A DNA stretch of 64,000 nucleotides from Oscillospiraceae bacterium. GTDB lineage: Bacteria; Bacillota; Clostridia; Oscillospirales; Acutalibacteraceae. The stretch covers positions 1 through 64,000 of the forward strand of contig CADBBH010000011.1 in assembly GCA_902792905.1 (NCBI GenBank), written 5' to 3'. Below are positions 33,546 through 52,923 of this stretch, in pieces. A program made the translations under genes and the position numbers. Position 1 is the stretch's first letter; each line of letters starts with the position of its first letter. Below the pieces are notes generated by a model. That model ran no database searches, was not told the DNA's origin, and saw only the letters and a list, made by a program, of their open reading frames with translations.

Positions 33546-33659
33546 CAAGCCCGTTTTCACCCCATTTTCTTTTTACCCCAGTTATTTTAACCCCATTTCT
33601 TTTTATCCCAGTTCTCAATTTCAAAAGGCTTAAATCTATTGATATATAAGGATTTTGCT

Positions 33660-33715
33660 TTCAGGGATAAAAACAAAAAAATCACCCTTGAGACCTTTCG
33701 GTGCTCAAGGGCTTG
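33660..33715. repeat. Left att-like direct repeat of the island
   Basis: Matches 54601-54657 over about 56 bp, with 31 bp (33685-33715) identical. The core is a hairpin (CCCTTGAG-ACC-TTTC-GGT-G-CTCAAGGG). The right copy abuts an integrase gene, so this pair is likely attachment-site DNA. Confidence 0.75.
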
Positions 33716-33840
33716 TTGTTTATGGTATTTAGATACGATTATATCCTTTAAAGCTACACACCTACTTTATCTTTTCAATCGAATTATAATCAGAGGTATG
33801 GGCTTAAAACGCCCAACGGATTTCTCTGAGCAAAAGTAAA

Positions 33841-33879: not shown

Positions 33880-34269
33880 TTATATGTTTCCAGGTTCTTG
33901 TGAAGCGCTTTTTCGGCGTTTTTTTCCTGTTGATTCTTCTCTTAACTGCCTGGCAAAATCGCAGACTGCATTTATAAAACCATCTATTATTTCCGTTTCG
34001 TGTTCGTGTATTCTGTCAAATAATCTGTCAAAATCTATTTTGTATGATGTTTTCTGACCGGTTAGGTTGTCTGTCAGCACTATTGTTTCCGGTATTTCGC
34101 AATATGTAATCAATCCGACTGACGTTTCGCCCTTGTTATTTCTGACCCTTATTGTGAATTTCTTGCCTTTCACATCCCAGTCAAGATTGCTTTCCAAGTA
34201 TCCTTTTTTAAAAAGTTCAACGATTGATCCTTGTATCAAAAATCTCATTGCAGCACCTTTTGACGGCAT
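33880..34269 (-). CDS. Unknown protein of the island, downstream of NADAR
   Basis: A 129-residue basic protein of unknown family. The first 75 residues are predicted strands (WDVKGKKFTIRVRNNKGETSVGLITYCEIPETIVLTD), followed by a helix (RIHEHETEIIDGFINAVCDFARQ) and a Lys/Arg-rich tail. Its start overlaps the stop of the NADAR gene by 1 bp, and GGAGG sits within that gene's end, so the two are translationally coupled. No function can be assigned. Confidence 0.7.
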   Translation of the reverse strand: MPSKGAAMRFLIQGSIVELFKKGYLESNLDWDVKGKKFTIRVRNNKGETSVGLITYCEIPETIVLTDNLTGQKTSYKIDFDRLFDRIHEHETEIIDGFINAVCDFARQLREESTGKKRRKSASQEPGNI

Positions 34270-34721
34270 TACTTTTCTTCCTCCTTTATCTCATCCCTGA
34301 TCGTCATCAGGATTTTGCCGAGCCAGTTTTTGGCTTCTTTGTTTTTGCACCTCTCGCAGGTGCAGTTGCCCCAGCGGTTGTCATGCCAGTGGTTGCCCTC
34401 TTCAAGGTAGGCGTCGCCTGTGGCGAGGAGCTTTTCCCTGAGCGCGGGATCTGCGAATTTTGCCCTGAGAATATCAAGCATTATATCATAGGCAATCTCA
34501 TCCCAGTTTGCGGGCAGGCCGGGCTCCTTCTTGCCCATGCTTTTGATTACAACAGGATTCTTTGTTTCTGTGTATTTGATTTTTGCCTCTTCTGTGGCGC
34601 ACTTCTGTGCCTGGAAGGCCGCCTCGGAGTTGGGGTAAACCAGCCCCTTATACTCAAACGGGCTTGAATAGAAATTTGAAAGGAAACCGTATTCTCCTTT
34701 GAAATCATTGATAACTGTCAT
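34269..34721 (-). CDS. NADAR-family protein (YbiA/DUF1768-like)
   Basis: A 150-residue protein of the NADAR (NAD and ADP-ribose) superfamily. Family motifs are FKGEYGFLSNFYSSPF (7-22), YPNSEAAFQAQK (29-40), a central helix bundle and the C-terminal NWLGKILMTIRDE. Some members are N-glycosidases in the riboflavin pathway and others remove ADP-ribose from guanine in DNA, acting as DarT antitoxins. Which applies here is unknown; no DarT toxin is recognisable beside it. A CxCxxC-type cluster (CTCERCKNK, about 124-132) in the C-terminal third is an unusual feature that might bind metal. Confidence 0.85.
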   Translation of the reverse strand: MTVINDFKGEYGFLSNFYSSPFEYKGLVYPNSEAAFQAQKCATEEAKIKYTETKNPVVIKSMGKKEPGLPANWDEIAYDIMLDILRAKFADPALREKLLATGDAYLEEGNHWHDNRWGNCTCERCKNKEAKNWLGKILMTIRDEIKEEEK

Positions 34722-34735
34722 ATTCTTTTCCTCCT

Positions 34736-35191
34736 TCAGTCTTCTATTTCTTCATATTCTTCTTTATACATCTGCATAAGATTATCAAACGCTTTGCTGT
34801 ATGACTCAAATGAACTCATATCTGCCTCATTGCGGCTGCCGTGAACGGAGAGCTCAAGCGGCATTGAGATCTTGTAATATCCCCTGCTGAACTGATTCTC
34901 TATAACCCAGCATAGACTCTCTGCAAAGGACTGACAGACCGTGAACTCTGCCTCTGTGTTACCATTGGGCACATCTGTGCAGAACTGATATTTGCAAATA
35001 AAGCGGAAAATGGGGAGATCCTCACGCAAAACAGAGTTGTAATCCCTGCTCTGCCTGAAATACTCAAATGTATCATACACCAGAGTTTTGAATTCTTCAA
35101 TATCTGTTTTTTCATAGTAAAGGTTCTCTGCAATGCTTTCCCACTTGTCATACAGAATTTCTCTTTGAGAGGGAACATAAGCTCCTTTCAT
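34736..35191 (-). CDS. Unknown small protein of the island
   Basis: A 151-residue acidic protein that I do not recognise. The start at 35191 (MKGAYVPSQREI) is supported by AAAGGAG; an ATG at 35281 is less likely. The sequence is mostly helical (YDKWESIAENLYYEKTDIEE and on) and ends in an acidic MQMYKEEYEEIED. It is the first gene of the minus-strand trio with NADAR and the 33880 gene (15-bp gap). Confidence 0.65.
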   Translation of the reverse strand: MKGAYVPSQREILYDKWESIAENLYYEKTDIEEFKTLVYDTFEYFRQSRDYNSVLREDLPIFRFICKYQFCTDVPNGNTEAEFTVCQSFAESLCWVIENQFSRGYYKISMPLELSVHGSRNEADMSSFESYSKAFDNLMQMYKEEYEEIED

Positions 35192-35336
35192 ATCAATCAC
35201 TCCTTTAAGAATATTTGCCTCACGGCCTGTCTGAATTATACAAAAGCTGATGGCACGAAATCGGGACATAACCTTTGTCATAATAACAGCGAATCAAGAT
35301 GATAAATTACTGAATAACGGAAAGGGATAAGCGATT

Positions 35337-35863: not shown

Positions 35864-35883
35864 ATGGGACAAAAAACGGCCAT
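35864..35883. promoter_or_regulatory. Operator-like site 1 (ATGGG-N10-GCCAT)
   Basis: ATGGGACAAAAAACGGCCAT, upstream of the DnaB-like gene and 5 bp before a CATAAT -10-like box. It shares its layout with sites at 36819, 41778 and 47726. Confidence 0.65.
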
Positions 35884-35941
35884 TAAGCATAATAGACTGT
35901 GAGCACAGAAGAAAAAATTCAGAAAACAAGGAGGAAACATT

Positions 35942-36850
35942 ATGTGCAACACATTATTTCAGGGTGAAACTGCCGTATTTCACCACATAAGCAAATTCTA
36001 CGGGTGGGAATCGAAACCCATTGAAAATGTTGAGATCACTTCACCCATCCTGCCGAAGGTAGCTGAGGAACTATTTTTTAACGGCGATGAAACAGGGCTT
36101 AACTGCATCGGAGCGAGACCGGGTATGGGCAAAACTACGCTGATGCTTCAGAAGATTCTGAATGAGCCCGAAAGAAGGGCATATATCTACAGCCCTGAAA
36201 TCCACGCAAAAAAACTGATTGATAGAATGACAAATATTCTGTACACGGCTTTATCCAAAGAAGAATACAAGCAGTTTAACTGCCACCCGACAAGATATCT
36301 CGCCGGCCTTGAAATATATATCTGCGAATGCAATATCGGCATTGATGAACTTTGCGATGAGCTGAAATCGGTTAAAGGAGATATCTATATTGATTATCTT
36401 CAGATGCTGAGGCCGGAGGGTAAAACCTACCCCAACGAATTGGAAAGTGAATATACAATTGGTGAACTTAGTTATCTTGCAGAGAACCATGCTGTTACTG
36501 TGCTTTCTCAGATAAATCCCATTGTTGAAGTGAGGGAAGATCATTGTCCCACAATAGAGGACTTCAGATTCTTTGAAATGCAGGTTCCTATGTACGCAGA
36601 CAGAGTATCTGTTTTTTATTCAAATGAATACTACACCGGCGAAATAGATGATATTCATAGATCCATTTTCAGATTCAGAATTCTAAAGCCGGCAGAGAAC
36701 AAGGATTATAATTCTTTTGAGATTAATCTTATACGAACTGCGATTAAAGAAACATTTTATTGTGAGAACGGCAGATATTGGTACGGCGAGACGCGTGCTG
36801 TGTTTTTTGCCGAAGGAGATGGGGTAAAAAACGACCATGGCGTGAAGTAA
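35942..36850 (+). CDS. Stand-alone DnaB-type RecA-fold ATPase
   Basis: A 302-residue protein equal to the C-terminal ATPase half of replicative helicase DnaB/phage gp4, without the N-terminal domain. Walker A is ARPGMGKTT (58-66), Walker B GDIYIDYLQML (Asp151), then a VTVLSQINP sensor segment and a DRVSVFYSNEYY strand with a basic end, all as in DnaB. The active site appears intact. A paralogue with a damaged P-loop is fused to a SLOG domain two genes downstream. AAGGAGG precedes the ATG. A helicase, or an ATPase regulator derived from one, is possible. Confidence 0.8.
   Translation: MCNTLFQGETAVFHHISKFYGWESKPIENVEITSPILPKVAEELFFNGDETGLNCIGARPGMGKTTLMLQKILNEPERRAYIYSPEIHAKKLIDRMTNILYTALSKEEYKQFNCHPTRYLAGLEIYICECNIGIDELCDELKSVKGDIYIDYLQMLRPEGKTYPNELESEYTIGELSYLAENHAVTVLSQINPIVEVREDHCPTIEDFRFFEMQVPMYADRVSVFYSNEYYTGEIDDIHRSIFRFRILKPAENKDYNSFEINLIRTAIKETFYCENGRYWYGETRAVFFAEGDGVKNDHGVK
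36819..36838. promoter_or_regulatory. Operator-like site 2 (ATGGG-N10-ACCAT)
   Basis: ATGGGGTAAAAAACGACCAT lies in the last codons of the DnaB-like gene, about 60 bp before the AAA+ gene. It differs from site 1 at only three positions. Confidence 0.6.
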
Positions 36851-36898
36851 CATGTAACTGAAAAAACAAGCTGAGATTGATTACAAGGAGGAAGAGTG

Positions 36899-38896
36899 AT
36901 GAGATTTTATAAGCTTACTTACAACGCAATAACCAGGATTGAAAAAAGAACAAATAACGGCAAAGAATGCTTTGAAGATTTATTTAAGGATATACCGGAT
37001 GAAATATCCGAATTGACAAACGGAAATGTTGTTGCTTTTCTGTCCGATTATTCAAGCAAAAAAATTCGTATCGCTGTTGCTGTTAATAATGGTGAGATTG
37101 ACGGGTACATTGAAGATATAACTTCATTTCTTCCTTCCAACATATCAGATGAAAATAAGGCAGAGGAAATAACGGGAGAGAATTTTGATAAAATGACCAG
37201 ATGCGCCGACAGATTTTGCAGTATTTGCGGCAGCGAAATCAGAGAGAAGCTCGGTATTTACAACCTCTATAGTTGGAATAGCGAACTCTCTTTTGATGAA
37301 CAATTCATTGAAAAACCCAAAGGAGAATATTTTTCTCTTGAGTTGGATGATGAGAAAGAAAGAATACGCCAATCCGGAAAGCCCAAGATTGAGTATAACC
37401 CGGTGCATTATATAATCGGCGGCAACTCCCCGGAAAGCAGGGAAACCCTGCTTGAAAAGCTGCTCTTTGAGCTTAAGGAAAACGGCCGCATTTCACAGGC
37501 AAGATACACTATGATTCACATAAAAGATTGTCATCATTTTAATTTAAAGGCTATGTCTGCCGAAGCCGAAATCATTTTCAAAGTCAGTGCCGGCGGCGCA
37601 ATGGTTTTTAATATTGCAGATACAATATCCGGCGGTGAGGAAAAGCGGTCTTCCGTTCGGGAGGTGCTTTCTGCTCTTTGCAAAGTAAGTAAAAAGTATT
37701 TGAGAAACACTCTTTGTATTTTTCTTTTGCCCGATAACAATCACGCATCTGCAGATGAAATGCGAGCGTGTATGCCCGGCGAAACCTTTGTGGAAATCAG
37801 AGAAGACTATATTAATTTTGAGAAATCAAGAAAGTATCTGTCATTTCTCGCAAAGAATGATAGGGTTCGCGCTAATAAAGCCCTCTATAAGGATATTGAG
37901 AAGGACAAAACATATTTTATCGATGAGCTCAACGCCGTTTATAATAACTGGTACAAAAAATCCGTTATAGACAAAAGTTTCCCCGCTTACAGCAAATACT
38001 ATGAAAAGCATGCCGTCAAAGTCGAGAAGGCGGAAGAAAAGAAAGAGCGCGGAGATGCGTATAAAGAACTGATGTCAATGATTGGCCTTGCCGGGGCCAA
38101 AGAGGTTATAAACGAAGCAATAGATTATTTCAAGGCTCAGAAGCTTTATGCGGACTGCGGTTTTACGGGCTCAAGCCCCACAATGCATATGGTATTCACA
38201 GGCTCGCCCGGCACGGCAAAAACAACCGCCGCCCGCCTCTTCGCGAAGATTATGAGAGATAACAAAATTCTTTCAAAAGGAACATTTGTTGAGGTAGGCA
38301 GAGCGGACCTTGTGGGTATGTATGTCGGCTGGACCGCAAACATCGTAAAGGAAAAATTCCGTAAGGCCGAGGGCGGCGTGCTATTTATTGATGAAGCATA
38401 TTCCCTTGTTGATGACCGTGGCGGATCTTACGGCGACGAGGCCATAAATACCATAGTGCAGGAAATGGAAAATAACAGGAATGATACCATTGTCATTTTT
38501 GCCGGATATTCCGACAAGATGGAAGAGTTTCTGGGTAAAAACCCGGGCCTGCGCTCAAGGATTGCGTTTCATGTTCCGTTTGAGGATTATTCCGCCGAAG
38601 AGCTTTTTGAGATAGCCGAGATGATGTCCGAAAAGAATAAGACGGTATTTGCTCCCGGTGTAAAAGAAAAGATGATTCCCATTTTTGAGGCGGCTTCGCT
38701 TCAGCCCGATTTCGGCAACGGCAGATTTGTGAGAAATCTTATGGAGAAGGCAAGGATGAAACAGGCAACGCGCCTTGTGAATTCAGGCAAAAAGCTGATT
38801 ACCAGGGAGCAAGTCTCAACACTTATCCCCGAGGATTTTGATATGCCCATAATGTGCACGGCTAAAGAAATTAAAAGAAACGCTATTGGTTTTTAG
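36899..38896 (+). CDS. CbxX/SpoVK-type AAA+ ATPase with a degenerate first module
   Basis: A 665-residue protein. ATG 36899 is preferred over GTG 36896 because of the spacing from AAGGAGG. The C-terminal AAA+ domain (about 395-650) has Walker A FTGSPGTAKTT (about 433-443), Walker B GVLFIDEAYSL (about 490-500), sensor FAGYSDKM and arginine finger NPGLRSRIAF, all of the CbxX/CfxQ-SpoVK class. Residues about 165-310 look like a first AAA-like module with a broken P-loop (GGNSPESRETLL). A Cys pair CADRFCSICG (about 101-110) could bind zinc. Members remodel protein complexes; the partner here is unknown but likely from the same operon. Confidence 0.85.
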   Translation: MRFYKLTYNAITRIEKRTNNGKECFEDLFKDIPDEISELTNGNVVAFLSDYSSKKIRIAVAVNNGEIDGYIEDITSFLPSNISDENKAEEITGENFDKMTRCADRFCSICGSEIREKLGIYNLYSWNSELSFDEQFIEKPKGEYFSLELDDEKERIRQSGKPKIEYNPVHYIIGGNSPESRETLLEKLLFELKENGRISQARYTMIHIKDCHHFNLKAMSAEAEIIFKVSAGGAMVFNIADTISGGEEKRSSVREVLSALCKVSKKYLRNTLCIFLLPDNNHASADEMRACMPGETFVEIREDYINFEKSRKYLSFLAKNDRVRANKALYKDIEKDKTYFIDELNAVYNNWYKKSVIDKSFPAYSKYYEKHAVKVEKAEEKKERGDAYKELMSMIGLAGAKEVINEAIDYFKAQKLYADCGFTGSSPTMHMVFTGSPGTAKTTAARLFAKIMRDNKILSKGTFVEVGRADLVGMYVGWTANIVKEKFRKAEGGVLFIDEAYSLVDDRGGSYGDEAINTIVQEMENNRNDTIVIFAGYSDKMEEFLGKNPGLRSRIAFHVPFEDYSAEELFEIAEMMSEKNKTVFAPGVKEKMIPIFEAASLQPDFGNGRFVRNLMEKARMKQATRLVNSGKKLITREQVSTLIPEDFDMPIMCTAKEIKRNAIGF

Positions 38897-38914
38897 CTGA
38901 GAAAAGAGGATAAT

Positions 38915-40516
38915 ATGGATTTTTCAAAACTGACAGGCACCGTCCCGACTGACGGCGAAACCGAATTCTTTCACCCTATAGGTAAATTCATCGGCGAAGA
39001 CAAAAAGAAGCCGACTGCTGAAATACTTGAGCAGATCAGTATTCCCGTATTACCCAAGGAGGCGGAGAGCATCTTCGCCTCCGAGCCAGGTGAGCTTTTT
39101 ACAATAAAAGCAGAGCTTGTTGCGGGTAAAAATTACCTTATGCTACAATATATTCTGAATCATCCCGGAGAAAATGTATATATCTGTACAACAGACTTTT
39201 TAATGAAACCCTGTGATATTGCTGACAAACTTTCATCGTTGATGTTTGATACCGTAAGCACCGACAGACTTGAAGAAATTCGCAAATACGCGAGTTATAT
39301 TATTTCTTCACTTCCGATTTATATCAACGACCCTGATCCGGATGATTTTGCCGATAAAATGTTCGCTGACCTTAATAATGTCGGTAACGGCCGTATTTTT
39401 ATATATGATGTTGACGAGCTTTTTGCCTTTGTCAAAAGAAACGGGCCTATGAGAGCCAAGGTGTTTTCGGCGATTATTAAACATATTTCCGAAAAGAATC
39501 CCGTTACGGTATTTGATTATGATTATTGCTTTAATCAACTTCCGCCCAATTCCGACCGGGCAGAATGGAATCTTATAAAAGCTTCAGATAAAATTACTGA
39601 AATAACGGCAGACGAAATTCATAATTTCCCATATGCTAAGGAAAAGCTGAGCGTTGCCGATATAAAATTCAGCATTGTCAAATCTTCATACGATGACGAG
39701 GGAACAGAATTTTTCCTTTGGGAAAAGTTTTATAAAAACCGGGCGCTGATTCCGAGAGAACCGCTTCGGTCGGTATTTATCGGCGGCTCAAAGAGCATTG
39801 ATTTCCTTGATAAAAACGCAATAAGAAAGATTGACGGCTATGCAGGTGACAATGTCAGGATTCTTATCGGTGACTGTCCGGGAGTTGATAAGCTTGTTCA
39901 GGCGCATCTTTTTCTCAAAGGATATAAAAATGTGACAGTTTATGCCACCGACGGGAATGCGAGAAACAATATCGGCGACTGGCCTGTAGTTAATGTGCCG
40001 TCTCACGGTGAGCAGGGATATGAGTATTATCAGCTGAAAGATATTGAAATGGCAAAAGATGCCGATGAGGCATTTATGATTTGGGACGGGCAAAGCAGAG
40101 GAACGGCTTTTAATATTGATGAAATGCAAAAGCTTGAGAAAAGAGTTTATATTCATCAGCAGGATAATAAAGACAGAAATCAGCATAACGGAGTATTCTG
40201 GTTTATTGATGATAAACTGTATGCTTTTCCCTATGATGAGAATAAATACCGCGACGCGGTTTCAAAATCAGGCACATCTTATAACCATCAGAAAATATGG
40301 GAATATATAAGGCCGAAGGGATGCGCCAACAAGCCGTTTGATTACTATCCGCGCGGCAGAGTCGTTATCATACGTCTGAACCGACCGGTCATCTATATGA
40401 ATCCTAAAATCAGCGAAAAGTATGTTCCCGAAATAATGGAGGCTTTCAATATTCAGAAAGATCCGATAATCAGATATGATTACAGCGAGCATTACAAATG
40501 TTATCTTGATGAATAG
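38915..40516 (+). CDS. Degenerate DnaB-like domain fused to a SLOG (DUF2493) sensor domain
   Basis: A 533-residue protein with no named family as a whole. Residues 15-255 align with the 35.9-kb DnaB-like protein (TEFFHPIGKF, IPVLPKEAES, YLMLQYILNHPGENVYICTTD), but the P-loop reads AELVAGKNY, losing the first Gly and the Thr. Residues about 285-410 are a SLOG/DUF2493 Rossmann domain: VFIGGSKSIDFLD, VRILIGDCPGVDKLVQ, YKNVTVYATDGNARN and MIWDGQSRGTAFN. SLOG domains bind nucleotide-derived ligands such as ADP-ribose species or nucleotides and act as sensors in defence systems. The last 120 residues are unassigned. It fits a ligand sensor working with the neighbouring AAA+ and DnaB-like proteins. 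Confidence 0.75.
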   Translation: MDFSKLTGTVPTDGETEFFHPIGKFIGEDKKKPTAEILEQISIPVLPKEAESIFASEPGELFTIKAELVAGKNYLMLQYILNHPGENVYICTTDFLMKPCDIADKLSSLMFDTVSTDRLEEIRKYASYIISSLPIYINDPDPDDFADKMFADLNNVGNGRIFIYDVDELFAFVKRNGPMRAKVFSAIIKHISEKNPVTVFDYDYCFNQLPPNSDRAEWNLIKASDKITEITADEIHNFPYAKEKLSVADIKFSIVKSSYDDEGTEFFLWEKFYKNRALIPREPLRSVFIGGSKSIDFLDKNAIRKIDGYAGDNVRILIGDCPGVDKLVQAHLFLKGYKNVTVYATDGNARNNIGDWPVVNVPSHGEQGYEYYQLKDIEMAKDADEAFMIWDGQSRGTAFNIDEMQKLEKRVYIHQQDNKDRNQHNGVFWFIDDKLYAFPYDENKYRDAVSKSGTSYNHQKIWEYIRPKGCANKPFDYYPRGRVVIIRLNRPVIYMNPKISEKYVPEIMEAFNIQKDPIIRYDYSEHYKCYLDE

Positions 40517-40551
40517 TCTTTATTGAAAAACAGCTTTAAGGAGAAAATTAT

Positions 40552-41727
40552 ATGAAAAATCAAAATGATTCCGTTGTTTCGCTTTGTGAGATTTTTGAAA
40601 CAGATGAATTCAAAAAAGCAAGCGCTGAGAGCAAACTGAGCCTCGCTCTCGGCAGGGATGAGGAAGGCAAGCCCGTTATTGCAGACCTTGCAAAAATGCC
40701 CCATTTGATTATCGGCGGATGTGCCGGCAGCATATCCACATGCCTTCATCCGATGATTATTTCCCTGCTTCACAATGCGACTCCCGATGAAGTAAAGCTC
40801 GTATTGCTTGACCCGAAAATGGTTGAATTTTCAGTTTATAGGAGTATCAATCACCTTGAAATTCCTGTTATTTTCAGTACCAATAAAGCTATCGGCGCTC
40901 TTGATTGGGCAGTAAGCGAAATGGATAAGAGATACAGTATGTTTGCAAAGCATGGAGTGCTTAACATAGACGGATTCAATAAGCTGTGCGACAGCAGGGA
41001 TGACATTACGAAGTTGCACAGAATCGTAATATTTATAGATGTATTCGAAGACTTGATGCTTTATAATCCCGAAGAGACAGAGAAATCAATCTGTAGACTC
41101 GCCCAGATGGCAAGAGCCGCAGGTATTCATCTTGTAATAGCCACTCAGTGTCCGCGTGATGATGTCATCACTCCTCTTATTAAAGCAAACATACCTTCAA
41201 GAATTGCGCTTTGGGTTGATCATCCAATGACTTCAAAAGTCATTATTGACCGTGATGGTGCCGAAAAGCTTTACATAAACGGTGATATGCTTTTTGCCCC
41301 TGTCGGCTCGTACTGCCCGCTGAGAGTTAAGGGATGTTACATAGACGGCGACGAAGTAGACAGTATTGTTGAGAGAATCAAATCTCCGTCCGAGTCAAAT
41401 TACAGCGATGAAATAATGCGTGAAATCAATATCAGGGCTGAAGCGGCTGCTGCGCGGCGCAATAATAAAGCAGATAATGATGATGTGGCGCATGACCCGC
41501 TGTTTAATCAGGCAGCTGAATGCGTAATACAGTCCGACATGGCATCGACCATATTAATTCAGAAAAAGCTCAAGCTCGGCTATGCAAGGACTTGCAGAAT
41601 TATGTATCAGCTTGAGAAAAACGGAATTGTAGGTCCGCAGGAAGGCTTTAACCCAAGACGGGTTCTTATTACGCCGGAAGAGTGGAAAGAGAAACAGCAG
41701 GCGCAAACAGATGATGAAAATGAATAA
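40552..41727 (+). CDS. FtsK/SpoIIIE-like protein lacking ATPase residues
   Basis: A 391-residue protein equal to the motor plus gamma domain of FtsK/SpoIIIE. The match is clear in PDEVKLVLLDPKMVEFSVY, IGALDWAVSEMDKRYSMFA, AQMARAAGIHLVIATQCP and the winged-helix gamma domain (about 325-375, ILIQKKLKLGYARTCRIMYQ). However, the Walker A loop reads GGCAGSISTC (55-64), one residue short and without the Lys, and Walker B reads IFIDVFEDLML, with Val164 where the catalytic Glu belongs. It should not hydrolyse ATP. The DNA-binding gamma domain looks intact, so it may bind DNA or poison an active hexamer. No transmembrane segment. Confidence 0.82.
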   Translation: MKNQNDSVVSLCEIFETDEFKKASAESKLSLALGRDEEGKPVIADLAKMPHLIIGGCAGSISTCLHPMIISLLHNATPDEVKLVLLDPKMVEFSVYRSINHLEIPVIFSTNKAIGALDWAVSEMDKRYSMFAKHGVLNIDGFNKLCDSRDDITKLHRIVIFIDVFEDLMLYNPEETEKSICRLAQMARAAGIHLVIATQCPRDDVITPLIKANIPSRIALWVDHPMTSKVIIDRDGAEKLYINGDMLFAPVGSYCPLRVKGCYIDGDEVDSIVERIKSPSESNYSDEIMREINIRAEAAAARRNNKADNDDVAHDPLFNQAAECVIQSDMASTILIQKKLKLGYARTCRIMYQLEKNGIVGPQEGFNPRRVLITPEEWKEKQQAQTDDENE

Positions 41728-41771
41728 TATGAAAGAATAATACAAATTTAAGCTTTAAAAACAAGCGCATT

Positions 41772-41812
41772 CAGACTATGGGTCGAAATTGTCCCATAGT
41801 CTGTGATATTAT
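41772..41812 (+). promoter_or_regulatory. Operator-like site 3 (perfect inverted repeat) and promoter
   Basis: CAGACTATGGG (41772-41782) and CCCATAGTCTG (41793-41803) are perfect 11-bp arms 21 bp centre to centre, with a TATTAT -10-like box at 41807-41812. The inner 20 bp (41778-41797) share the ATGGG-N10-CCCAT layout with the other sites. Confidence 0.75.
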
Positions 41813-41834
41813 GAAGCTGTAAGGAGGAGAGATT

Positions 41835-42206
41835 ATGAGAGAAACAATCAGGGTAAATGGTATATTTGATAAGCTTTTCGCTAACGTTACCGGCACACAG
41901 ATTAAAGATGAACCCTTCAGAGACAAAGACGGCACACTCATCCTTTCAGTCATGAACTGCATACTCGATGACGGCAACGCAGTCGAGCTCTGTTTCTGGA
42001 CAGACAGCGGTATTACCATGTGGGATGTTTCCGCAGACAAAAACGGATTCGATTTTCACGGCTCAGAAACATTTGAGGAATATATGAAAACCAAGGGGCT
42101 TCATGCCTGCAATGTTATTGAGGAAACTACCGGAACCGAATGGAAATATGCCGGAAAAATCGAAAAAGAGAATCAGCACAGGCTGCAGTATTACTGCAGA
42201 GATTAA
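41835..42206 (+). CDS. Unknown small protein, first gene after the operator
   Basis: A 123-residue acidic protein of unknown family. The first part is predicted beta-rich (LILSVMNCILDDGNAVELCF) with a W/D-rich middle (WDVSADKNGFDFHG) and a helical end. GGAGGAGAG precedes the ATG. It starts a run of short, co-directional unknown genes under the strongest operator-like site in the island. Confidence 0.65.
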   Translation: MRETIRVNGIFDKLFANVTGTQIKDEPFRDKDGTLILSVMNCILDDGNAVELCFWTDSGITMWDVSADKNGFDFHGSETFEEYMKTKGLHACNVIEETTGTEWKYAGKIEKENQHRLQYYCRD

Positions 42207-42215
42207 GGAGCCGAT

Positions 42216-43184
42216 ATGAGAAACTACCTGAAAAACAAAAACGAATATATCGAAGACGGCAAAAGGTATATAGAAGATATAGAACACATTTACAAATTGA
42301 TGAAATTCGGAGATAAATATGCTTTTTCTTGTAGTATTCATCAACGCGGAAACAGATTATATCTGTATGTAAAAGGATCGAAATATATTGAGAGAACGGA
42401 CTGTTCCGGCAAAAAGCTCTGGCTTGACACTGCTGCTTTGCAGAAGGTTGAGGAAGCTGTAGAGGCATTTGACGAAATAATTGACGAAGCCGTTAACGGA
42501 GGCGGATATACCGAGGTCCGGGTCGAGGGGCTTGACGGCTTTGTTTACTACAGGCGTGTGAACAGTATGGTGTTTTTAAGAAGGAGTTTTGATTTTGTTA
42601 CGGTGTTCCCGGATGAAAACGGTGAAACGGTAAAACTGTTTTCTGAAAACTGCTCTGTTTCCGATATGATACGGAATATTGAATGGGATACCGGGCTTTT
42701 CGGGAAGAAAACCGAAGAGGCTGAAAAAGCTCTTGATTATATATGTCATTCCGATAATAAGACCATAGCTTTCAATCCGCTCTATTTATCCGCATTAAAA
42801 GAAAACGATAAAATGATGCAGTGCGAGCTGAAATTGCATTACGGGATAGCGGATGAAGATGAATGCAGATTTATTTCGGAAAAGACCGGCTTAAGAATAC
42901 TGCCTCTTCTACCCAAGGAATATGATAAAAGCTATGTGGTTGAGGCTATTGATGAAAACGAGAACAGCGAATTTCTCGAGTTGCTTCACCACTCGGGTTA
43001 CAAAATTCTGCACAGACCGTATTTCGCAATGATGAACAGCACGCACAAAAACATTTCCTTGAATCCCCATACAAAAACCGGCGTAGATGCCGCAGAGCAG
43101 GATGCCGAAGCGATTACATTCGACGAATTCCTTGCACTGTTTGATGAATATGAAAAAAGCAAATTACAATTAACAAACCGATAA
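42216..43184 (+). CDS. Unknown island protein
   Basis: A 322-residue cytoplasmic protein with no family that I can name. It is charged, with no signal or membrane segment. Helical N-terminal and C-terminal parts flank a strand-rich middle (about 95-150, TEVRVEGLDGFVYYRRVNSM). Start 42216 has AAGGAG upstream and lies 10 bp after the preceding stop, so it is in the same operon. Confidence 0.65.
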   Translation: MRNYLKNKNEYIEDGKRYIEDIEHIYKLMKFGDKYAFSCSIHQRGNRLYLYVKGSKYIERTDCSGKKLWLDTAALQKVEEAVEAFDEIIDEAVNGGGYTEVRVEGLDGFVYYRRVNSMVFLRRSFDFVTVFPDENGETVKLFSENCSVSDMIRNIEWDTGLFGKKTEEAEKALDYICHSDNKTIAFNPLYLSALKENDKMMQCELKLHYGIADEDECRFISEKTGLRILPLLPKEYDKSYVVEAIDENENSEFLELLHHSGYKILHRPYFAMMNSTHKNISLNPHTKTGVDAAEQDAEAITFDEFLALFDEYEKSKLQLTNR

Positions 43185-43201
43185 AAACGGAGGTGCTCAT
43201 T

Positions 43202-43573
43202 ATGAATAAGCTGAATGTGTTTTCCAACAAAGACGGCTTCGGGCGTTTATCAAAGAATATTGTGTATTTTTTTGACAATCTCAAATACGCAAAGCAGAGA
43301 ATCGTGCGCGGTTTTGCAGATTGTGATATTTGGGATTTCAGTTTTTATCTCAAAAAACTCTTTTCCGACGGCCTTGATTGTTTTGCCGATGATCTCCACG
43401 GTTACCCCGAGAGCTACGGCAGCGTCGAAAACTGGGAAAAAGAACTCAGACGCATAGCCGACCTTGTCAGAAAACTCGATGTCGAAGAATTTGAACGCCC
43501 CGATGATTATGACGAAATAAAAAACGAAGTCCTTGACTGGATGAGAGATAATTTTGATGATTTGTGGGATTGA
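43202..43573 (+). CDS. Unknown small acidic protein
   Basis: A 123-residue acidic protein, unknown family. ATG 43202 is preferred over the in-frame GTG at 43193, which overlaps the GGAGG. The C-terminal half is strongly acidic and helical (PDDYDEIKNEVLDWMRDNFD). It sits 4 bp before the next gene, consistent with one transcript. Confidence 0.6.
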   Translation: MNKLNVFSNKDGFGRLSKNIVYFFDNLKYAKQRIVRGFADCDIWDFSFYLKKLFSDGLDCFADDLHGYPESYGSVENWEKELRRIADLVRKLDVEEFERPDDYDEIKNEVLDWMRDNFDDLWD

Positions 43574-43576
43574 TTT

Positions 43577-44569
43577 ATGAATAAAAAAGAATTTGAAACG
43601 ATAATAAATAAAACCGTTCCCTCACGGCAGATGCGGGAATTCCTCTGCCTTCCGGAGAGTGGACTAAGCCGTTTGGAGTTTGCCGATGTTATTATCGGCT
43701 CCCCGGAAATCACAATAAATGAAAAATATGATCTGCTGTGTTTATTGGCGGATGAATACGGCGAAGAAAAAATCGCGGAATATGCCCGTGATTTCAAGGC
43801 GGCGATTGATAATCTCGCCTGCGCTCCCGGTGAGCTTTTCACCGTTGACGACCCGTGGTATGACGAGGATATAAAAGAGGTCAAATACAGCGGATTCAGC
43901 AATCAGCTCTGCGCGGATTATAACATAGTTATCGGATACATTGATTGGAAATATAAATACGAAGAGTACGAATCCGACAACTGTACCTGGTTTGTTATAA
44001 AAAAATGGGCTCCGGATGAAAACAGCAGATATATAAACACATATATTTACTATTTTATTTACGGCATCGGTATCTGCTGGTTTGCCGCCTGCAGGGAATA
44101 CAGAGACGAAGGCCCTTATTCCCGCCTGCCGAAGCATAAATACTCCTCCGCTTGCACAGATCTGAATATTGCCACTCCGTTCAGGGCCGGCGATATTGTT
44201 AGGATCGACTGCCGCCCGTTTGCGCCGCCCGTCAATGCGCTGATTCTTTACGCGGGCCCCGATTGGGATTGCTGCAGCCTGCTGGCACTTTACAGAGATG
44301 ACAAGGGCCGTTACCGCACGGGCGCAGTCAAGCATACGGATATGTGGATGCATCTCAGTGGAGATAATATGATATCCGCCCTTTACCGCATTGAAAATTA
44401 TGACGGAGAGCTCAATGAATCTGACCGCATATATAAAGAAATATCGCCGCTGATTTACGGCGACAATGAAAAAGGCGATAATGTGTGGCATCTTCTGAGC
44501 GAAAACAGAGATTTTACATCGCCCGTAGAATTGCTTGAAAAAGTAAAGAAACTATTTGAGGAGAAATGA
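43577..44569 (+). CDS. Unknown island protein with PFxxGD segment
   Basis: A 330-residue protein that I do not recognise. It has an aromatic-rich middle (ICWFAACREYRDEGPYSRLP) and a segment TPFRAGDIVRIDCRPF that recalls PFKKGDLLY and PFKRGDVIY of the two paralogues at 45.7 and 46.7 kb, so all three may share a distant fold. No membrane helix or catalytic motif is evident. The start is 4 bp after the previous stop. Confidence 0.6.
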   Translation: MNKKEFETIINKTVPSRQMREFLCLPESGLSRLEFADVIIGSPEITINEKYDLLCLLADEYGEEKIAEYARDFKAAIDNLACAPGELFTVDDPWYDEDIKEVKYSGFSNQLCADYNIVIGYIDWKYKYEEYESDNCTWFVIKKWAPDENSRYINTYIYYFIYGIGICWFAACREYRDEGPYSRLPKHKYSSACTDLNIATPFRAGDIVRIDCRPFAPPVNALILYAGPDWDCCSLLALYRDDKGRYRTGAVKHTDMWMHLSGDNMISALYRIENYDGELNESDRIYKEISPLIYGDNEKGDNVWHLLSENRDFTSPVELLEKVKKLFEEK

Positions 44570-44572
44570 ATT

Positions 44573-44944
44573 ATGGGTTATTTTTCAATGTTGGATATTG
44601 ATCACGAAGATTACAGCTATCCTCCGCCAGAGCGTCAGCTTGAAATGAGACTTGACATATTGAAAGACCGGTTGCAGGAATTAAAAGAAAAAGGTGCGGT
44701 ATACAGATTCTTCTTAACCGACGGAGCTTATTTATCAGACGATGATATAAGATATGTTCAGCCTGAGAGTTTAAAATGTATTTATCATGTGGAAAAAGCC
44801 ATTGAACTTGCAATTGAGGATTTGAGAGAAAAATACGGAATTATCTTAACCGAAAACGGATACAGGGAATATGACGAATTAGAAAAACCGGCTGTATTTG
44901 GTTTAAATAAAATTGAAGCAAATCGGCTTATTACAGCAGCATAA
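44573..44944 (+). CDS. Unknown small helical protein
   Basis: A 123-residue helical protein. Coiled-coil-like heptads run through about 20-45 (RQLEMRLDILKDRLQELKEK). GAGGAG lies 9 bp before the ATG, inside the end of the preceding gene. Function unknown. Confidence 0.6.
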   Translation: MGYFSMLDIDHEDYSYPPPERQLEMRLDILKDRLQELKEKGAVYRFFLTDGAYLSDDDIRYVQPESLKCIYHVEKAIELAIEDLREKYGIILTENGYREYDELEKPAVFGLNKIEANRLITAA

Positions 44945-44977
44945 AGAAAACCACAAATATTAACGGAGGTATTTATT

Positions 44978-45487
44978 ATGAAAGTAACATCGGCGCAGGC
45001 TGCCAAAATAATCAGAAACCTTACAAATGAGCTCAGCGACCTGCTCAGGCTTGAAAACAAGGTGAGCACATTTGTTGCCGCCGTCGGCGAAGATCCAGAA
45101 AGCGTGAGGCCCGCTTACAGTTTTGAAGAAACCGCGGCAAAAAAGAAAGAACTTGAAGAAAAGATAAGAAAAATAAAGCACGCCTTGAATGTCTTCAACA
45201 TCAACACTGTTGTGCCGGGCTTCAATATGACCGTTGACGAGGTGCTTGTATATATGCCACAGCTGACTGCGGATGTATCGCGCCTCAACAGTCTTAAGTC
45301 GGCTCTGCCCAAAGAAAGAGTTGATTCTTACGGCAGGACAAGTGTCGGCCTTATAGATTACAGGTATGCGAATTACGATATTGCGGCTGCGGAGCGCGAA
45401 TATCAGACAGCCACTGACACGCTGGCAAAGCTTCAGCTTGCTCTTGATGCCGTCAATAACACAGCTGAGTTTGAAATTGATGTTTAA
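44978..45487 (+). CDS. Conserved coiled-coil protein (DUF6847-like, name from memory)
   Basis: A 169-residue helical protein. The start MKVTSAQAAKIIRNLTNELS, the ESVRPAYSFEETAAKKKELE helix, the KIRKIKHALNVFN segment, the VPGFNMTVDEVLVYMPQL loop and the YANYDIAAAEREYQ end match a family widespread in Bacillota that I recall as DUF6847. Its role is unknown; it is often found in mobile elements and near restriction-like genes. GGAGG is 10 bp before the ATG. Confidence 0.75.
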   Translation: MKVTSAQAAKIIRNLTNELSDLLRLENKVSTFVAAVGEDPESVRPAYSFEETAAKKKELEEKIRKIKHALNVFNINTVVPGFNMTVDEVLVYMPQLTADVSRLNSLKSALPKERVDSYGRTSVGLIDYRYANYDIAAAEREYQTATDTLAKLQLALDAVNNTAEFEIDV

Positions 45488-45730
45488 TAAAACATAATCC
45501 CTGTCTGCGCGCTTCTTAAATCGAATAAAAAGACATTATTGAAGTTCAGAGTTTGAGTTTTCCGTTATTCCTTTTTGTTATCCGTTATTTATAAAGGTTC
45601 AATGTCAGAAGGAATATTCAATAAAACAGCGCGCTGACGAAAACTTGGGCGGATTATTCCGTTTAATCTGCCTGCCCGGCGGAAGTAAAGGGTTATATGC
45701 CGGGAATCTTTTTATTAAACAGGAGTCAGA

Positions 45731-46726
45731 ATGAATATTTTCGAATTGCTTAATTCCCGCAGTATCGCGGAACACTGGAAAAAGATTGATTATAAGCCGG
45801 ATTCTCTTGAATCGGCCTGGATTGTGTATAATAACATGAAGCTCAGCTTTAGTGAAAAATGCAAATATTGGGAAGAGATAATAAACACCATGCCCGATAT
45901 GGAAATACCGGATAACGAATGCTGCAGTCGTAGTTTTGACAGTCTTCATAGTTTCCTCAGGTGTTTTATGGATTTAACTCGCCGTTTTCTGGTTTGGTTT
46001 TATAATAATGCCGGCTGTGTTTATTCTGTGAATGAGTGGTCTGAAGAGTTCGGAATCGGCTCTGCTTTTTCATCAGCAGAAAGAATAGAACAATATGTAA
46101 ACAGCAAGTACTTTGAGGATCGCATTAGGTTTTTTCTGAAAAGGACTGTGATTGACGAATTCCAAGAAGATGAAGATATAGGGCTTCACCCATTTGCCAC
46201 TATAGTCGTTGATAAAAAAATGCAAGCTGTATATCAGGAAATTTGGACTTATAACGGATTTCCCTGTTCTGCGGAAGAATATGAACTGTTAAAAGCTTTT
46301 AACGGAATGATTTTTGATTTTCCCATTCCGTTTAAAAAAGGTGATTTGCTATATAAACATCGGAAAGGACTTTGGCCAAAAAACGATAAAGAAGAGCTTT
46401 ATGTTTACACCTCATTAAATAAAGATACAATGGATGTTGTCGGCTTCGGTCAAGGCATGATCGGACATATATATAAAAGTGATTATCAAGGCTGTTGTAT
46501 GGATTTTGAACTGTATAAAGGAAAATGCGATAATGAGAAAAGAATAATGAAAGCGCTGTCGATTTATGAAAAAGGTCTTATAAGTGATGATAAATTTACA
46601 AAACTGTACCAATATATTCTTATGGAAGAAGAGATGAAGTACAGCATTGTATGCCATTTTTCGGAGGAAATCCTTGAACTCGTCGGCATCAACACCCCAA
46701 AAGAAGGATTAGAGGAACAAATATGA
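45731..46726 (+). CDS. Unknown island protein, tandem paralogue A
   Basis: A 331-residue protein of unknown family. Its first ~58 residues are almost identical to those of the next gene (shared IAEHWKKIDYKPDSLESAWI and IVYNNMKL), while the rest is related but diverged, sharing only patterns such as FDFPIPFKKGDLLY and the end LSIYEKGLIS. This is the look of a recent duplication or gene conversion of the 5' part. It overlaps the next start by 4 bp (ATGA). The 45488-45730 stretch before it shows only short CCGTTATT repeats and no gene. Confidence 0.65.
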   Translation: MNIFELLNSRSIAEHWKKIDYKPDSLESAWIVYNNMKLSFSEKCKYWEEIINTMPDMEIPDNECCSRSFDSLHSFLRCFMDLTRRFLVWFYNNAGCVYSVNEWSEEFGIGSAFSSAERIEQYVNSKYFEDRIRFFLKRTVIDEFQEDEDIGLHPFATIVVDKKMQAVYQEIWTYNGFPCSAEEYELLKAFNGMIFDFPIPFKKGDLLYKHRKGLWPKNDKEELYVYTSLNKDTMDVVGFGQGMIGHIYKSDYQGCCMDFELYKGKCDNEKRIMKALSIYEKGLISDDKFTKLYQYILMEEEMKYSIVCHFSEEILELVGINTPKEGLEEQI

Positions 46727-47736
46727 ATATTTACGATTTACTTAACTCCAGTAGCATCGCGGAACACTGGAAAAAGATTGATTATAAGCCGGATTCTCTT
46801 GAATCAGCCTGGATTGTATATAATAACATGAAGCTCGGATTTAACGAAAAATGCAAATGTTGGGAAGAAATCATAAACACTATGCCCGACAGGGAAATTA
46901 TCAGAAGGCCGAACTGCCCTCATTATGACAGCCTGCACGACTTTCTTAATCGTTTTATGGCTTTGAGCAGGCGCTTTTTAGACTGGTTTTATACTAATAC
47001 CGATTGTGTCTATACTATAGATTATGAATGGCGATTTGATCCTGTGTTTTCGTCGGTTGATTCATTGAAAGAGTATATAAAGGCCGAAGATTGCGAAGAA
47101 ATTGAACGCTTTGTTATCAAAAAGATCTCGGTAGATGATTACTCAAAATACCCCGCGAAAATAATTGTGAACAGGGAGTTTGAGTTCATACGCCCGGAAA
47201 GATGGGATTACGGCGCTTTTCCCTGTAATGAAGATGAATATGATATGCTTGTAGCTTTTGAAGGTATGTGGTTTGATTTTCCCGTGCCGTTCAAAAGAGG
47301 CGATGTGATATATTGTCCGTATTACAAGTGCGGCATAGGAACAGCGGAAGATTATACTGATTTATTTGTGGTGCTGGACATCGTTCCGAAATGTCTGAGT
47401 GAAAAAGTAAAGAAATGGTTTTTCGAGGGAAAAAACGGCGATACCACCGATATGAGCTTTGGCGGATATACCCAATGGAGAGACGGAACCGTTTACAGAG
47501 AGTCCTTCTGTAACTACATGGATTTTGAATTCTATAACGGTGAATTCGAAGGCGCTCAGAGGATAATCAAAGCGCTCTCCAATTATGAAAAAGGGCTCAT
47601 AAACGATGAACTGCTTATGCACGCCTATCATCAGATTCTCTCGGAGGAGAGGGCGAAAAACGATATTCCCGAGTTCTATACTCACGAAGGTCTTGAGCTC
47701 GCCGGCATCAACATAGACAAAAATAATGGGGCATAA
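46723..47736 (+). CDS. Unknown island protein, tandem paralogue B
   Basis: A 337-residue protein, paralogue of the previous gene. The N-terminal 58 residues match it at about 90 percent, while the middle (about 60-190) is diverged and the PFKRGDVIY and LSNYEKGLINDE segments are retained. No recognisable catalytic residues. A conserved N terminus with a variable remainder suits polymorphic partner-recognition proteins, but that is inference. Operator-like site 4 overlaps its last codons. Confidence 0.65.
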   Translation: MNIYDLLNSSSIAEHWKKIDYKPDSLESAWIVYNNMKLGFNEKCKCWEEIINTMPDREIIRRPNCPHYDSLHDFLNRFMALSRRFLDWFYTNTDCVYTIDYEWRFDPVFSSVDSLKEYIKAEDCEEIERFVIKKISVDDYSKYPAKIIVNREFEFIRPERWDYGAFPCNEDEYDMLVAFEGMWFDFPVPFKRGDVIYCPYYKCGIGTAEDYTDLFVVLDIVPKCLSEKVKKWFFEGKNGDTTDMSFGGYTQWRDGTVYRESFCNYMDFEFYNGEFEGAQRIIKALSNYEKGLINDELLMHAYHQILSEERAKNDIPEFYTHEGLELAGINIDKNNGA

Positions 47737-47761
47737 TTGTCGCATACCTCTATTGTATAAT
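47726..47761 (+). promoter_or_regulatory. Operator-like site 4 and promoter of the WYL gene
   Basis: ATGGGGCATAATTGTCGCAT (47726-47745) is followed by a perfect TATAAT at 47756-47761, 50 bp before the WYL start codon. It matches site 3 in 14 of 20 positions. Confidence 0.7.
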
Positions 47762-47811
47762 ATGGCTGTAAGTGATATAATTTATCAAACGATACTTAAG
47801 GAGCTGATTTT

Positions 47812-49467
47812 ATGGAATCATATTCAGCAGACAGAAAAAAGATGACAACGCTGTATATTCTTGAAATACTCAAAAGATACACGGACGATACAGTTGACGA
47901 AAACGGAATCCCCGCTCATTGCCTCACACAGGCTCAGATCGGCGAGAAACTGTATAAGGATTATGAAATCATTCTTGACCGCAAGGCAATCGCCCGCGGC
48001 CTTGATGATCTCATCTATTCAAGAGATTATGCCGATAAAATCCAGTATGAAACAAAAGACAGAATAACAACCGAAAAAGGGAAAAAGGTTAAAACCGAAT
48101 ACAGAACCGATTTCCGCTATTGTCACAGTTTCAGTACGGCTCAGATCCGTATGTTGATGGATGCGGTTCTCTTTTCAAAAAATATACCTTATTCCGAATG
48201 CATAGAGCTGCTTGAGCTTATCAGCAATCTCGGAGATATAGATGCGAGAAACCGGCTCACTAAGCATCTGAGTAATTTGCGCGATATGTCTTTTGATAAA
48301 GTATCAAATGACCAGCTTCTTTACAATATCGGTGTAATTGATGAGGCAATCGACCAGGGTAAGCAAATTGCATATATTTATAATAATTACGGCAGAGATA
48401 TGAAGCTTCATCCGAGACTTGTTGACGGCGAAATAGATCCCAAGGTTGTCAACCCATATCAGATGATTGCTACTAACGGCAGATATTACCTTATTTGTAA
48501 TTATGATGAATATGAGAATACGGCGAGGGTTCGTATTGATAAGATTACCGATATAGAAATACTTGATACCAATGTTAAACCGAAAAGTAAAGTTAAAGGT
48601 CTTAAAGATATACCCGAAACAATGGCGGGTCAGCTCTATATGCAGCCCGGCACTCCGGAAAGAATAGTATTCAGAATAGCAAATAACGAAAGAATAATAA
48701 GTGATATTGTTGACTGGTTCGGCAAAAGAGTCAGATTTATTTCTGAAGACGGAAAAACAGTCACATGCGCAGTTAAAATCAATCCTGCTGATATGAAATT
48801 CTGGGCAATGCAGTATTCAGATAATGTGGAGATTCTTGAGCCGGAATCTCTGCGTGATAATATAAGAACATCTTTGCGCGAGGCATGGAGAAAATACAAT
48901 GACGGTAAAGATACTCTCATTGAATCCGATGAGAATATAAAGAGGCTTATCGCAGAGTGGAAACAGATCTGCGAGGACGCAAAGGCAGAGAAGGTTGATG
49001 TGAAGCGCCTGGGCGCGCTGGTCAGAAAAACCCACCTTATGCTTCTGCCTCTTCGCGGCGAGGAAATCGAGGGTCAGTACAGCGGACTGGTTCTCGGTCT
49101 CAATAAATGCTATAAAAATTCCAGAACCGGATTGATTTCCAATCTGAATTGCGTTTCATTGATACTTGGCGCTCTGCTTGCCGAAATTGATGATAACAGA
49201 ATGTACAGAATGAGACGAAACATTCCCGACGATACTCTTCCGATTATCCTTCATACCGGTGAGGACGGCAGGGTTGAGGTTATGCTCGATATCAACAACT
49301 TTGAAGAGGGTTATCTCACACTGCTTCAATATACCGACAAAAATGCCGAGGAGGCAAGAAAGAATCACGCCATTCTCAGAGAAAAGATGAAGGAAAGACA
49401 TAAGGAAATAATGGAACAGAGAAGAAAAGAACATGAAGAAAAGAAAAAGAGGGATGAAAACTCATAA
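47812..49467 (+). CDS. WYL-domain transcription regulator with long C-terminal extension
   Basis: A 551-residue protein. An N-terminal winged helix (about 10-85, LTQAQIGEKLYKDYEIILDR) precedes a helical region, the WYL domain (about 170-255, IGVIDEAIDQGKQIAYIYNN, then NPYQMIATNGRYYLICNYDE) and a WCX-like segment to about 350. The last ~180 residues are an unusual helical, basic extension ending in a Lys/Arg/Glu-rich coil. WYL proteins bind nucleic acid or nucleotide ligands and repress or activate; CapW and BrxR control phage-defence systems. Four similar operator-like sites in the island, one before this gene, suggest it autoregulates and controls the island. Confidence 0.85.
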   Translation: MESYSADRKKMTTLYILEILKRYTDDTVDENGIPAHCLTQAQIGEKLYKDYEIILDRKAIARGLDDLIYSRDYADKIQYETKDRITTEKGKKVKTEYRTDFRYCHSFSTAQIRMLMDAVLFSKNIPYSECIELLELISNLGDIDARNRLTKHLSNLRDMSFDKVSNDQLLYNIGVIDEAIDQGKQIAYIYNNYGRDMKLHPRLVDGEIDPKVVNPYQMIATNGRYYLICNYDEYENTARVRIDKITDIEILDTNVKPKSKVKGLKDIPETMAGQLYMQPGTPERIVFRIANNERIISDIVDWFGKRVRFISEDGKTVTCAVKINPADMKFWAMQYSDNVEILEPESLRDNIRTSLREAWRKYNDGKDTLIESDENIKRLIAEWKQICEDAKAEKVDVKRLGALVRKTHLMLLPLRGEEIEGQYSGLVLGLNKCYKNSRTGLISNLNCVSLILGALLAEIDDNRMYRMRRNIPDDTLPIILHTGEDGRVEVMLDINNFEEGYLTLLQYTDKNAEEARKNHAILREKMKERHKEIMEQRRKEHEEKKKRDENS

Positions 49468-50531: not shown

Positions 50532-50543
50532 TCAGGTGATACC

Positions 50544-51740: not shown

Positions 51741-51751
51741 GGAGAAAAACT

Positions 51752-52285: not shown

Positions 52286-52308
52286 TTTATCATTTCACAC
52301 ATAATCGA

Positions 52309-52342
52309 CTATATGATAAAGTATAAAGGATATTTTAAATAA
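52309..52342 (+). repeat. 34-bp direct repeat, copy 2
   Basis: Copy of the dGTPase gene end lying between the 51752 gene and kptA; it is not in a gene here. Confidence 0.8.
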
Positions 52343-52364
52343 ACACAAAACGGGGTGAGCGGTA

Positions 52365-52913: not shown

Positions 52914-52923
52914 GGAGCGGACT

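Follow-up and report, generated by a model that had tools for sequence, protein, structure and literature searches.

Seven candidate WYL operator-promoters along a probably mobilisable element of an Oscillospiraceae bacterium

The DNA considered here (the window) comprises 64,000 nucleotides, positions 1 to 64,000 of contig CADBBH010000011.1 from assembly GCA_902792905.1 of an Oscillospiraceae bacterium (Clostridia; Acutalibacteraceae). The element of interest, which is integrated and probably mobilisable, lies after rpsI (32976-33371) and encodes a WYL regulator of 551 amino acids (47812-49467, plus strand), upstream of which lie genes for a NADAR protein, a DnaB-like ATPase and an AAA protein. 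One WYL gene was found among the Pfam-scanned island genes, and the other WYL match of the genome is on another contig. Judging from sequence and from analogy with known WYL proteins, we consider it fairly probable that seven operator-promoters compose an element-wide WYL regulon, in which the WYL protein would act as a DriD-like activator responding to a nucleic-acid signal.

Operator-like palindromes along the element

An initial annotation of this DNA had listed four operator-like sites as a WYL-controlled regulon, and direct reading of the window finds all four as described. The first, ATGGGGCATAATTGTCGCAT (47726-47745, plus strand), directly precedes the WYL gene: TATAAT (47756-47761) follows 10 bp on, and the start at 47812 is 86 bp away. 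The second, ATGGGTCGAAATTGTCCCAT (41778-41797, plus strand), stands before gene 41835 with a -10 hexamer TATTAT (41807-41812), and lies inside a palindrome (41772-41803) formed of perfect 11-bp arms (41772-41782 and 41793-41803) with a 10-bp spacer. The other two are ATGGGACAAAAAACGGCCAT (35864-35883, plus strand), before the DnaB-like ATPase gene 35942, and ATGGGGTAAAAAACGACCAT (36819-36838, plus strand), located within the DnaB-like gene, at its 3' end, and before the AAA gene 36896. These two differ at three bases, and their -10 hexamers are TAGACT (35893-35898; alternatively CATAAT, 35888-35893) and TAACAT (36848-36853), respectively.

To these we add three candidate sites, two of which had been overlooked in the window, and on sequence grounds the regulon is wider than the four listed ones, reaching mobile-element genes. 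A two-way operator (35250-35269) has a -10 at 9 bp on both sides: CATAAT (35279-35284, plus strand) towards gene 35337, and TATAAT (35235-35240, minus strand) towards gene 34736 and NADAR. A weaker one (33798-33817, minus strand; score 12.6, see below) is followed at 9 bp by a perfect TATAAT (33783-33788, 6/6). The last lies just beyond the window (contig positions 64694-64713, minus strand): TATAAT follows at 9 bp, and then AGGAGG, resembling a ribosome-binding site, ahead of the large gene of an SNF2-like helicase.

The exact motif ATGGG-N10-CCCAT occurs a single time in the 2.07-Mb, 84%-complete assembly, namely at 41778. When it is loosened to ATGGG-N10-CSCAT with at most one mismatch, 60+57 matches appear genome-wide against 56+44 for the reversed control; since the loose pattern is so near its control, 35864 and 36819 are not significant by the initial criterion, and resemblance alone is insufficient for the claim. 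A weight matrix was therefore taken from other organisms. WYL relatives were found elsewhere in the genus and in the order, and the upstream DNA of the 18 closest loci was read. Setting aside G019 (near-identical), G011a (whose upstream DNA amounts to 7 bases) and L033 (upstream DNA the same as that of G060) left 15 regions, in each of which one 20-bp ATG-N14-CAT-like palindrome was chosen by eye, two of them reading GTG-N14-CAC. The matrix contains no site from the genome itself or from G019; the weaker WYL homologues L016-L031 stayed outside the operator comparison and were scanned for generic inverted repeats only. On leaving one out, 13 of the 15 training sites score at least 12.4.

In Markov sequence, a score of at least 16 is expected 0.02 times per 64 kb. 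The four best sites of the window are 41778 (21.5), 47726 (21.4), 35250 (18.4) and 35864 (17.5), followed by 30600, an intragenic site lacking a -10, and by 36819 (14.7) in sixth place. On this footprint matrix, rather than on the earlier pattern, we judge the four listed sites to be real and, as a set, beyond chance. The scores contradict chance for 41778, 47726 and 35250, and either 36819 or 33798, taken singly, could be a chance match. Candidates at 30600, 60596, 60897 and 5341 (scores 12.1 to 14.7) were dropped, being outside the island and lacking a -10 whose second base is A and sixth base T. A 20-position sequence model was also abandoned as a genome scanner, because it holds too little information: it returned nothing in the genome at E 10, and on the window alone it recovered 41778, 47726, 35250 and 35864 (E 0.1 to 2.5), with 36819 and 33798 absent.

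Restriction, conservation and promoter anatomy

The island was defined as 33372-55785 and compared with 18 stretches of 20 kb (360 kb) from the same genome, none of them from this contig. It holds 5 sites scoring at least 14, against a mean of 0.17 and a maximum of 2 for 200 permutations of the matrix, and 5 promoters (a site with a -10 at 9 bp), against a permuted mean of 0.01; 47726, with its spacing of 10, is not counted among these promoters. In the background, a score of 14 is attained by 2 sites (3 with rounding), and a -10 at 9 bp by none of them.

A motif scan of the genome had been set beforehand as a refuting test. The pattern ATG-N14-CAT-N9-YANNNT, which is blind to spacing 10 and to GTG-type sites (including 47726 and 33798) and was run on an incomplete assembly, gave 38 matches, compared with 5 for its reversed control. 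Seven of the 38 score at least 14, and these seven, one of them outside the window, are all on this contig, so that the regulon withstood the scan within the reach of the pattern. The next-best matches are C4:71245 (13.9) and C8:117508 (13.0), both with TATACT; C3:64577 (11.7) resembles, by eye, coding sequence. Overall, the operator-promoters are restricted to the element as far as these searches reach. In G019, the same pattern has 37 matches that include its three island promoters. The second, distant WYL gene of the genome lies at C8:120845-121576, with a 13.0 site and TATACT about 3 kb upstream.

Elsewhere, too, WYL homologues have an operator of this kind upstream. When 394 genomes of the order were searched with the G043 protein, 25 proved to contain relatives at E 1e-50, with a sporadic spread. 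Thirteen of these regions, all outside the genus of the window (for L109 and L114, the training set includes genomes of the same genus), served as held-out loci. Their 211 kb contain 21 sites (permuted mean 1.33, maximum 9) and 19 promoters (permuted mean 0.16, maximum 2). One or more sites of at least 12 with a -10 are present in 11 of the 13, and in 8 a site of at least 12 is upstream of the WYL gene, the one in L111 being without a good -10. Such conservation supports one regulon tied to the WYL gene, as the initial annotation had proposed, with more than its four sites.

The genes downstream of the sites recur as well. At the held-out loci they encode FtsH-like AAA peptidases (L106, L112), a metallophosphoesterase (L108), a DnaB-like ATPase (L117), a UvrD helicase (L110) and relatives of the AAA protein of the window (L113, L114). 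In the 19 regions of the genus and order we find DnaB-like, FtsH-like, phosphoesterase, NADAR and AAA genes and relatives of genes 34736 and 35337. Thus, the FtsH-like AAA peptidase recurs in G019, G043 (where its site scores 20.1), G193 and G260; the DnaB-like gene in this genome, G019 and G435; the AAA gene in this genome, G030, G117 and G095; the phosphoesterase in G029 and G426; and relatives of 34736 in this genome, G019 and G030. Moreover, G019 holds a diverged counterpart of 41778 before the same gene (L035, 4598, minus strand), and G030 (L050, 3376) has a two-way site that is likewise bordered by relatives of genes 34736 and 35337, as 35250 is by these genes.

Spacing was examined in all 36 non-training sites scoring at least 14 in the window, the 19 genus and order regions and the 13 held-out loci, selected on operator score only. 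A -10 was called when a hexamer matched TATAAT at 4 or more positions, in either direction, and spacings of 0 to 25 bp were counted. Such a hexamer is found exactly 9 bp on in 28 of the 36 sites, with 3 more at 8 bp and 3 at 10 bp; any other spacing is represented in at most 14 of the 36 (at 12 and 14 bp). This count supersedes 14 hand-picked directions (12 of 14 at 9 bp), which had omitted L040 2001, with a -10, and L044 16226, without one.

At the usual distance, the -35 match averages 2.36 of 6 positions over 36 promoters (22 of them non-WYL and found partly through their -10) against 2.46 at random; for the 19 held-out promoters the mean is 1.79, below chance. TGn precedes the -10 in 11 of these 19, compared with 6% at random. 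WYL-gene promoters often carry a second TATAAT-like box near +30, and in the window a possible second promoter (TTGTAT 47753-47758, TATAAT 47776-47781) overlaps the first one. Both overlapping promoters (47753-47781) share TTGTATAAT, which might balance the level of the WYL protein. The sites, their spacing, the poor -35, their conservation and, within the reach of the searches, their restriction to the element are computed features of the DNA.

The WYL protein and its probable mode of action

The regulator is composed of a winged helix-turn-helix (wHTH, approximately residues 1-103), a helical bundle, WYL and WCX domains, both above the Pfam cut-off, and a helical C-terminal extension (approximately 373-550). 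Its AlphaFold (AF2) model (pLDDT 74, pTM 0.38) shows the wHTH, helical bundle, WYL and WCX, so that the predicted protein has the domain set of DriD. In a Foldseek search, ranks 1-15 belonged to DriD or PafBC (rank 1 being of the DriD type) and ranks 16-17 to a CRISPR-related protein, with BrxR and CapW following from rank 18. A family profile searched against the PDB found DriD chains at E about 1e-7 and PafBC chains at 3e-5 to 4e-3, with neither CapW nor BrxR at E 1; a single-sequence PDB search gave no match at E 0.1. R241 and D243 are invariant across 15 aligned sequences. By profile and model, the nearest solved relatives are DriD and then PafBC. The WYL protein of G066 (L056, 9684-11849, minus strand) has an additional domain at its C-terminus, which bears the motif CCFTGHRPEKL and is presumably DUF1273/SLOG-like.

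According to a preprint, DriD of Caulobacter crescentus is a WYL activator that binds a pseudo-palindrome of about 20 bp, ATACGAC-N7-GTCGTAT, overlapping weak -35s (1-2 of 6 positions) with constant spacing to the -10, and contributes to anchoring RNA polymerase (PMC12340889, preprint). The preprint also describes several operons and one two-way promoter, and reports that DriD does not regulate its own gene (PMC12340889, preprint). The likeness lies in the set of domains and in the operators: here, too, a pseudo-palindrome of about 20 bp is centred on a poor -35 and keeps its spacing to the -10, before several operons and with one two-way promoter. However, DriD is a chromosomal DNA-damage regulator of a proteobacterium, whereas here we deal with a Clostridia mobile element, other targets, the half-site ATGGGRC and an extra C-terminal helical part. 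In contrast to that report on DriD, an operator stands before this WYL gene, its -10 facing the gene.

PafBC promoters of mycobacteria are characterised by a TTGTC-like element (RecA-NDp). PafBC is described as a WYL activator triggered by single-stranded DNA (ssDNA), working by sigma adaptation at promoters that do not rely on a -35 (PMC11804915), and as a heterodimer at a -26 motif, for which non-palindromic DNA was suggested (PMC6789036). The shared features would be a WYL activator, promoters not relying on a -35 and the TTGTC-like promoter element; the heterodimer on a non-palindromic -26 site has no counterpart here, where a single WYL gene among the Pfam-scanned island genes is accompanied by palindromic operators. 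SiwR of Mycobacterium smegmatis is reported to be a homodimeric WYL activator at a 19-bp imperfect palindrome between -35 and -10 (PMC10693628), and differs in serving one adjacent operon and in its dependence on the -26 region.

Such evidence induces us to propose the following scenario. The WYL protein, probably a homodimer, would bind the 20-bp palindrome (of the ATGGGRC-N6-GYCCCAT type, loosely ATG-N14-CAT) at seven places, six in the window and one beyond, centred approximately 31-32 bp upstream of the expected starts. The operator would there occupy the position of the -35, 9 bp before the -10 (10 bp at the WYL gene itself). Having taken up a nucleic-acid signal through its WYL domain, plausibly ssDNA because of the analogy with DriD and PafBC, the protein would dock RNA polymerase on these promoters and switch on the ATPase, nuclease-like and NAD-linked genes together with the helicase of the element, and the WYL gene may stay on through its second, overlapping promoter. 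Activation fits best with the constant spacing and the missing -35, and it is from this promoter architecture, read alongside DriD, that we infer it.

The strongest competing explanation keeps the same regulon and makes the WYL protein a CapW/BrxR-like repressor that would sit on promoters of the extended -10 type, over their upstream portion, and be released by a signal of phage infection. CapW, of cyclic oligonucleotide-based signalling (CBASS) loci, and BrxR, of bacteriophage exclusion (BREX) loci, are likewise wHTH-WYL-WCX homodimers on palindromes near defence genes, and the initial annotation had pointed to their repression of defence genes through similar operators. In favour of it, the operator overlaps the promoter, TGn is frequent at the held-out loci, and the neighbours NADAR, KptA and the dGTPase-like HD protein (a PADLOC dGTPase match) are defence-like. 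The published CapW palindrome overlaps the -10 (PMC9122588), and BrxR repeats, with a 5-bp gap, lie over a canonical -35 in Acinetobacter, which also suits a repressor, and between promoter and gene in another species, two boxes being reported in one island (PMC9122589, PMC9122601). However, these operators stand at varied positions and have other gaps, whereas here 9-10 bp separate the operator from the -10 that follows, and its ATGGG arms are 10 bp apart. A repressor requires neither one exact -10 spacing nor a missing -35, and CapW and BrxR, repressors both, are weaker structural matches than DriD and PafBC, which are closer by profile and fold. We therefore regard repression as unlikely and would replace that part of the earlier interpretation with an operator standing in for the -35, as in DriD; a WYL regulon across the mobile element with activation seems more likely than one with repression.

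Several observations weigh against the activator scenario. Letters of the operator cover the -35 position, so that the poor -35 does not count as independent evidence, and a promoter with an extended -10 may function in the absence of a -35, leaving room for a repressor. TGn is present in just 2 of the 8 promoters of this element. Eight of the 36 non-training sites have no -10 at 9 bp (47726 has one at 10), among them the sites before NADAR in G029 and before AAA in G030, with no good -10 at 9 or 10 bp, and the site before WYL in L111. The -10 hexamers of 35864 and 36819 match at just 4 of 6 positions, 33798 scores below 14, and 36819 alone is not strong, its score being equalled by 30600, probably by chance. 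The second box is found in the best-scoring full promoter in just 9 of 14 WYL-gene cases, and mean promoter scores are close (8.9 for WYL, 8.0 for non-WYL, 7.3 at random). As for the matrix, its 15 training sites were selected by eye, and G017 (8.8) and G011b (8.2), the two that fail on leaving one out, fall outside the scheme, with TTGACA, again by eye, directly after the palindrome. Five of the 13 held-out loci lack a site of at least 12 upstream of the WYL gene, L107 and L115 show no site of at least 12 with a -10 at all, and the site before the FtsH-like gene of G019 scores 12.2. The AF2 model is modest, with low TM-scores, and the Foldseek result is a ranking and not a superposition. Finally, binding by this WYL protein, expression, activation, the ligand (ssDNA) and the purpose are all inferred.

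Another element-coded or host regulator might own the palindromes and control the WYL gene, given that a site upstream of a gene need not mean autoregulation; we find this quite improbable, as the sites stay with WYL relatives in different families of the order, where the other neighbours vary, and within one element the operators resemble, by eye, that of the WYL gene itself (ATGCACCGAAAA in G008/G020). Selective reading of chance matches in AT-rich promoter DNA, for which the background level of the one-mismatch pattern and the choice of training sites by eye might speak, is hardly credible in view of the own-genome, permuted-matrix, held-out and spacing results.

If DriD-like activation holds, this type of control, shared with PafBC, extends to Clostridia mobile elements and has a searchable promoter signature (operator, 9 bp, an often extended -10, no -35) that ties genes without assigned function into one response; a WYL gene in a defence-like island, in turn, need not encode a repressor. 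It is tempting to suppose, though only tentatively, that an SOS-independent, ssDNA-sensing activator on a mobile element detects DNA that is entering or damaged (phage, conjugation, replication stress) and turns on cargo enzymes together with the helicase through -35-less promoters, the switch serving related gene sets order-wide. No report of such a regulon was found in an open-access library, where WYL papers on mycobacteria, Caulobacter and pupylation came up.

The element and its other genes

The integrase, ParB, Mob_Pre relaxase, primase-type proteins and helicase point to an integrated, probably mobilisable element. A tyrosine integrase (PF00589) is encoded at 54661-55785 (minus strand), and ParB, the Mob_Pre relaxase, DUF5906, a DnaG-type zinc ribbon and the SNF2-like helicase occupy 56087-63999 (minus strand). 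Leftward of 35250 are genes 34736 (likely start 35200), NADAR (34269-34721) and 33880, all on the minus strand (33880-35200).

On the plus strand, the DnaB-like RecA-fold ATPase following 35864 (35942-36850; 302 amino acids; PF03796, 9.8e-15) is succeeded by the AAA protein following 36819 (36896-38896; 666 amino acids; AAA and AAA_lid_6 by Pfam, with a weak PADLOC match to IetA), by a 533-amino-acid protein (38915-40516), whose N-terminus is related to the DnaB-like protein and whose C-terminal part matches phrog_289, and by an FtsK-like protein (40552-41727; Pfam). Genes 41835 to 46723, downstream of 41778 (41835-47736, plus strand), are unassigned to a family: they have no Pfam match, and a PHROGs search with four of them gave one weak match (41835). 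The tandem paralogues 45731-46726 and 46723-47736, also without a Pfam match, are 45% identical. After the WYL gene come a 341-amino-acid protein, the dGTPase-like HD protein, a 177-amino-acid protein, KptA and a DUF2779 protein (49506-54447, plus strand). Among 10 island proteins scanned with PADLOC, there were WYL and dGTPase matches and weak Cas4, Cas3c and IetA matches, and no CBASS or BREX proteins.

A search for attachment (att) sites, comparing the rpsI side with the integrase side, found no common exact word of 11. A 50-bp direct repeat (33666-33715 and 54608-54657) is 96% identical, and its 23-base core has just these two copies in the genome at up to 3 mismatches. The integrase lies outside this pair, and one copy is directly after its stop; the repeat reads as a duplicated minus-strand terminator. 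The 33798 promoter is predicted to yield an RNA of approximately 100 nucleotides (33672-33777, minus strand) ending at the 33666-33715 terminator; the region 33655-33778 has a fold z of -3.2, and the predicted RNA has no Rfam match at gathering score. Two copies of another repeat (60560-60660 and 60860-60960), carrying inverted GCGTCA/TGACGC-like motifs, separate the primase-type genes from that of the helicase.

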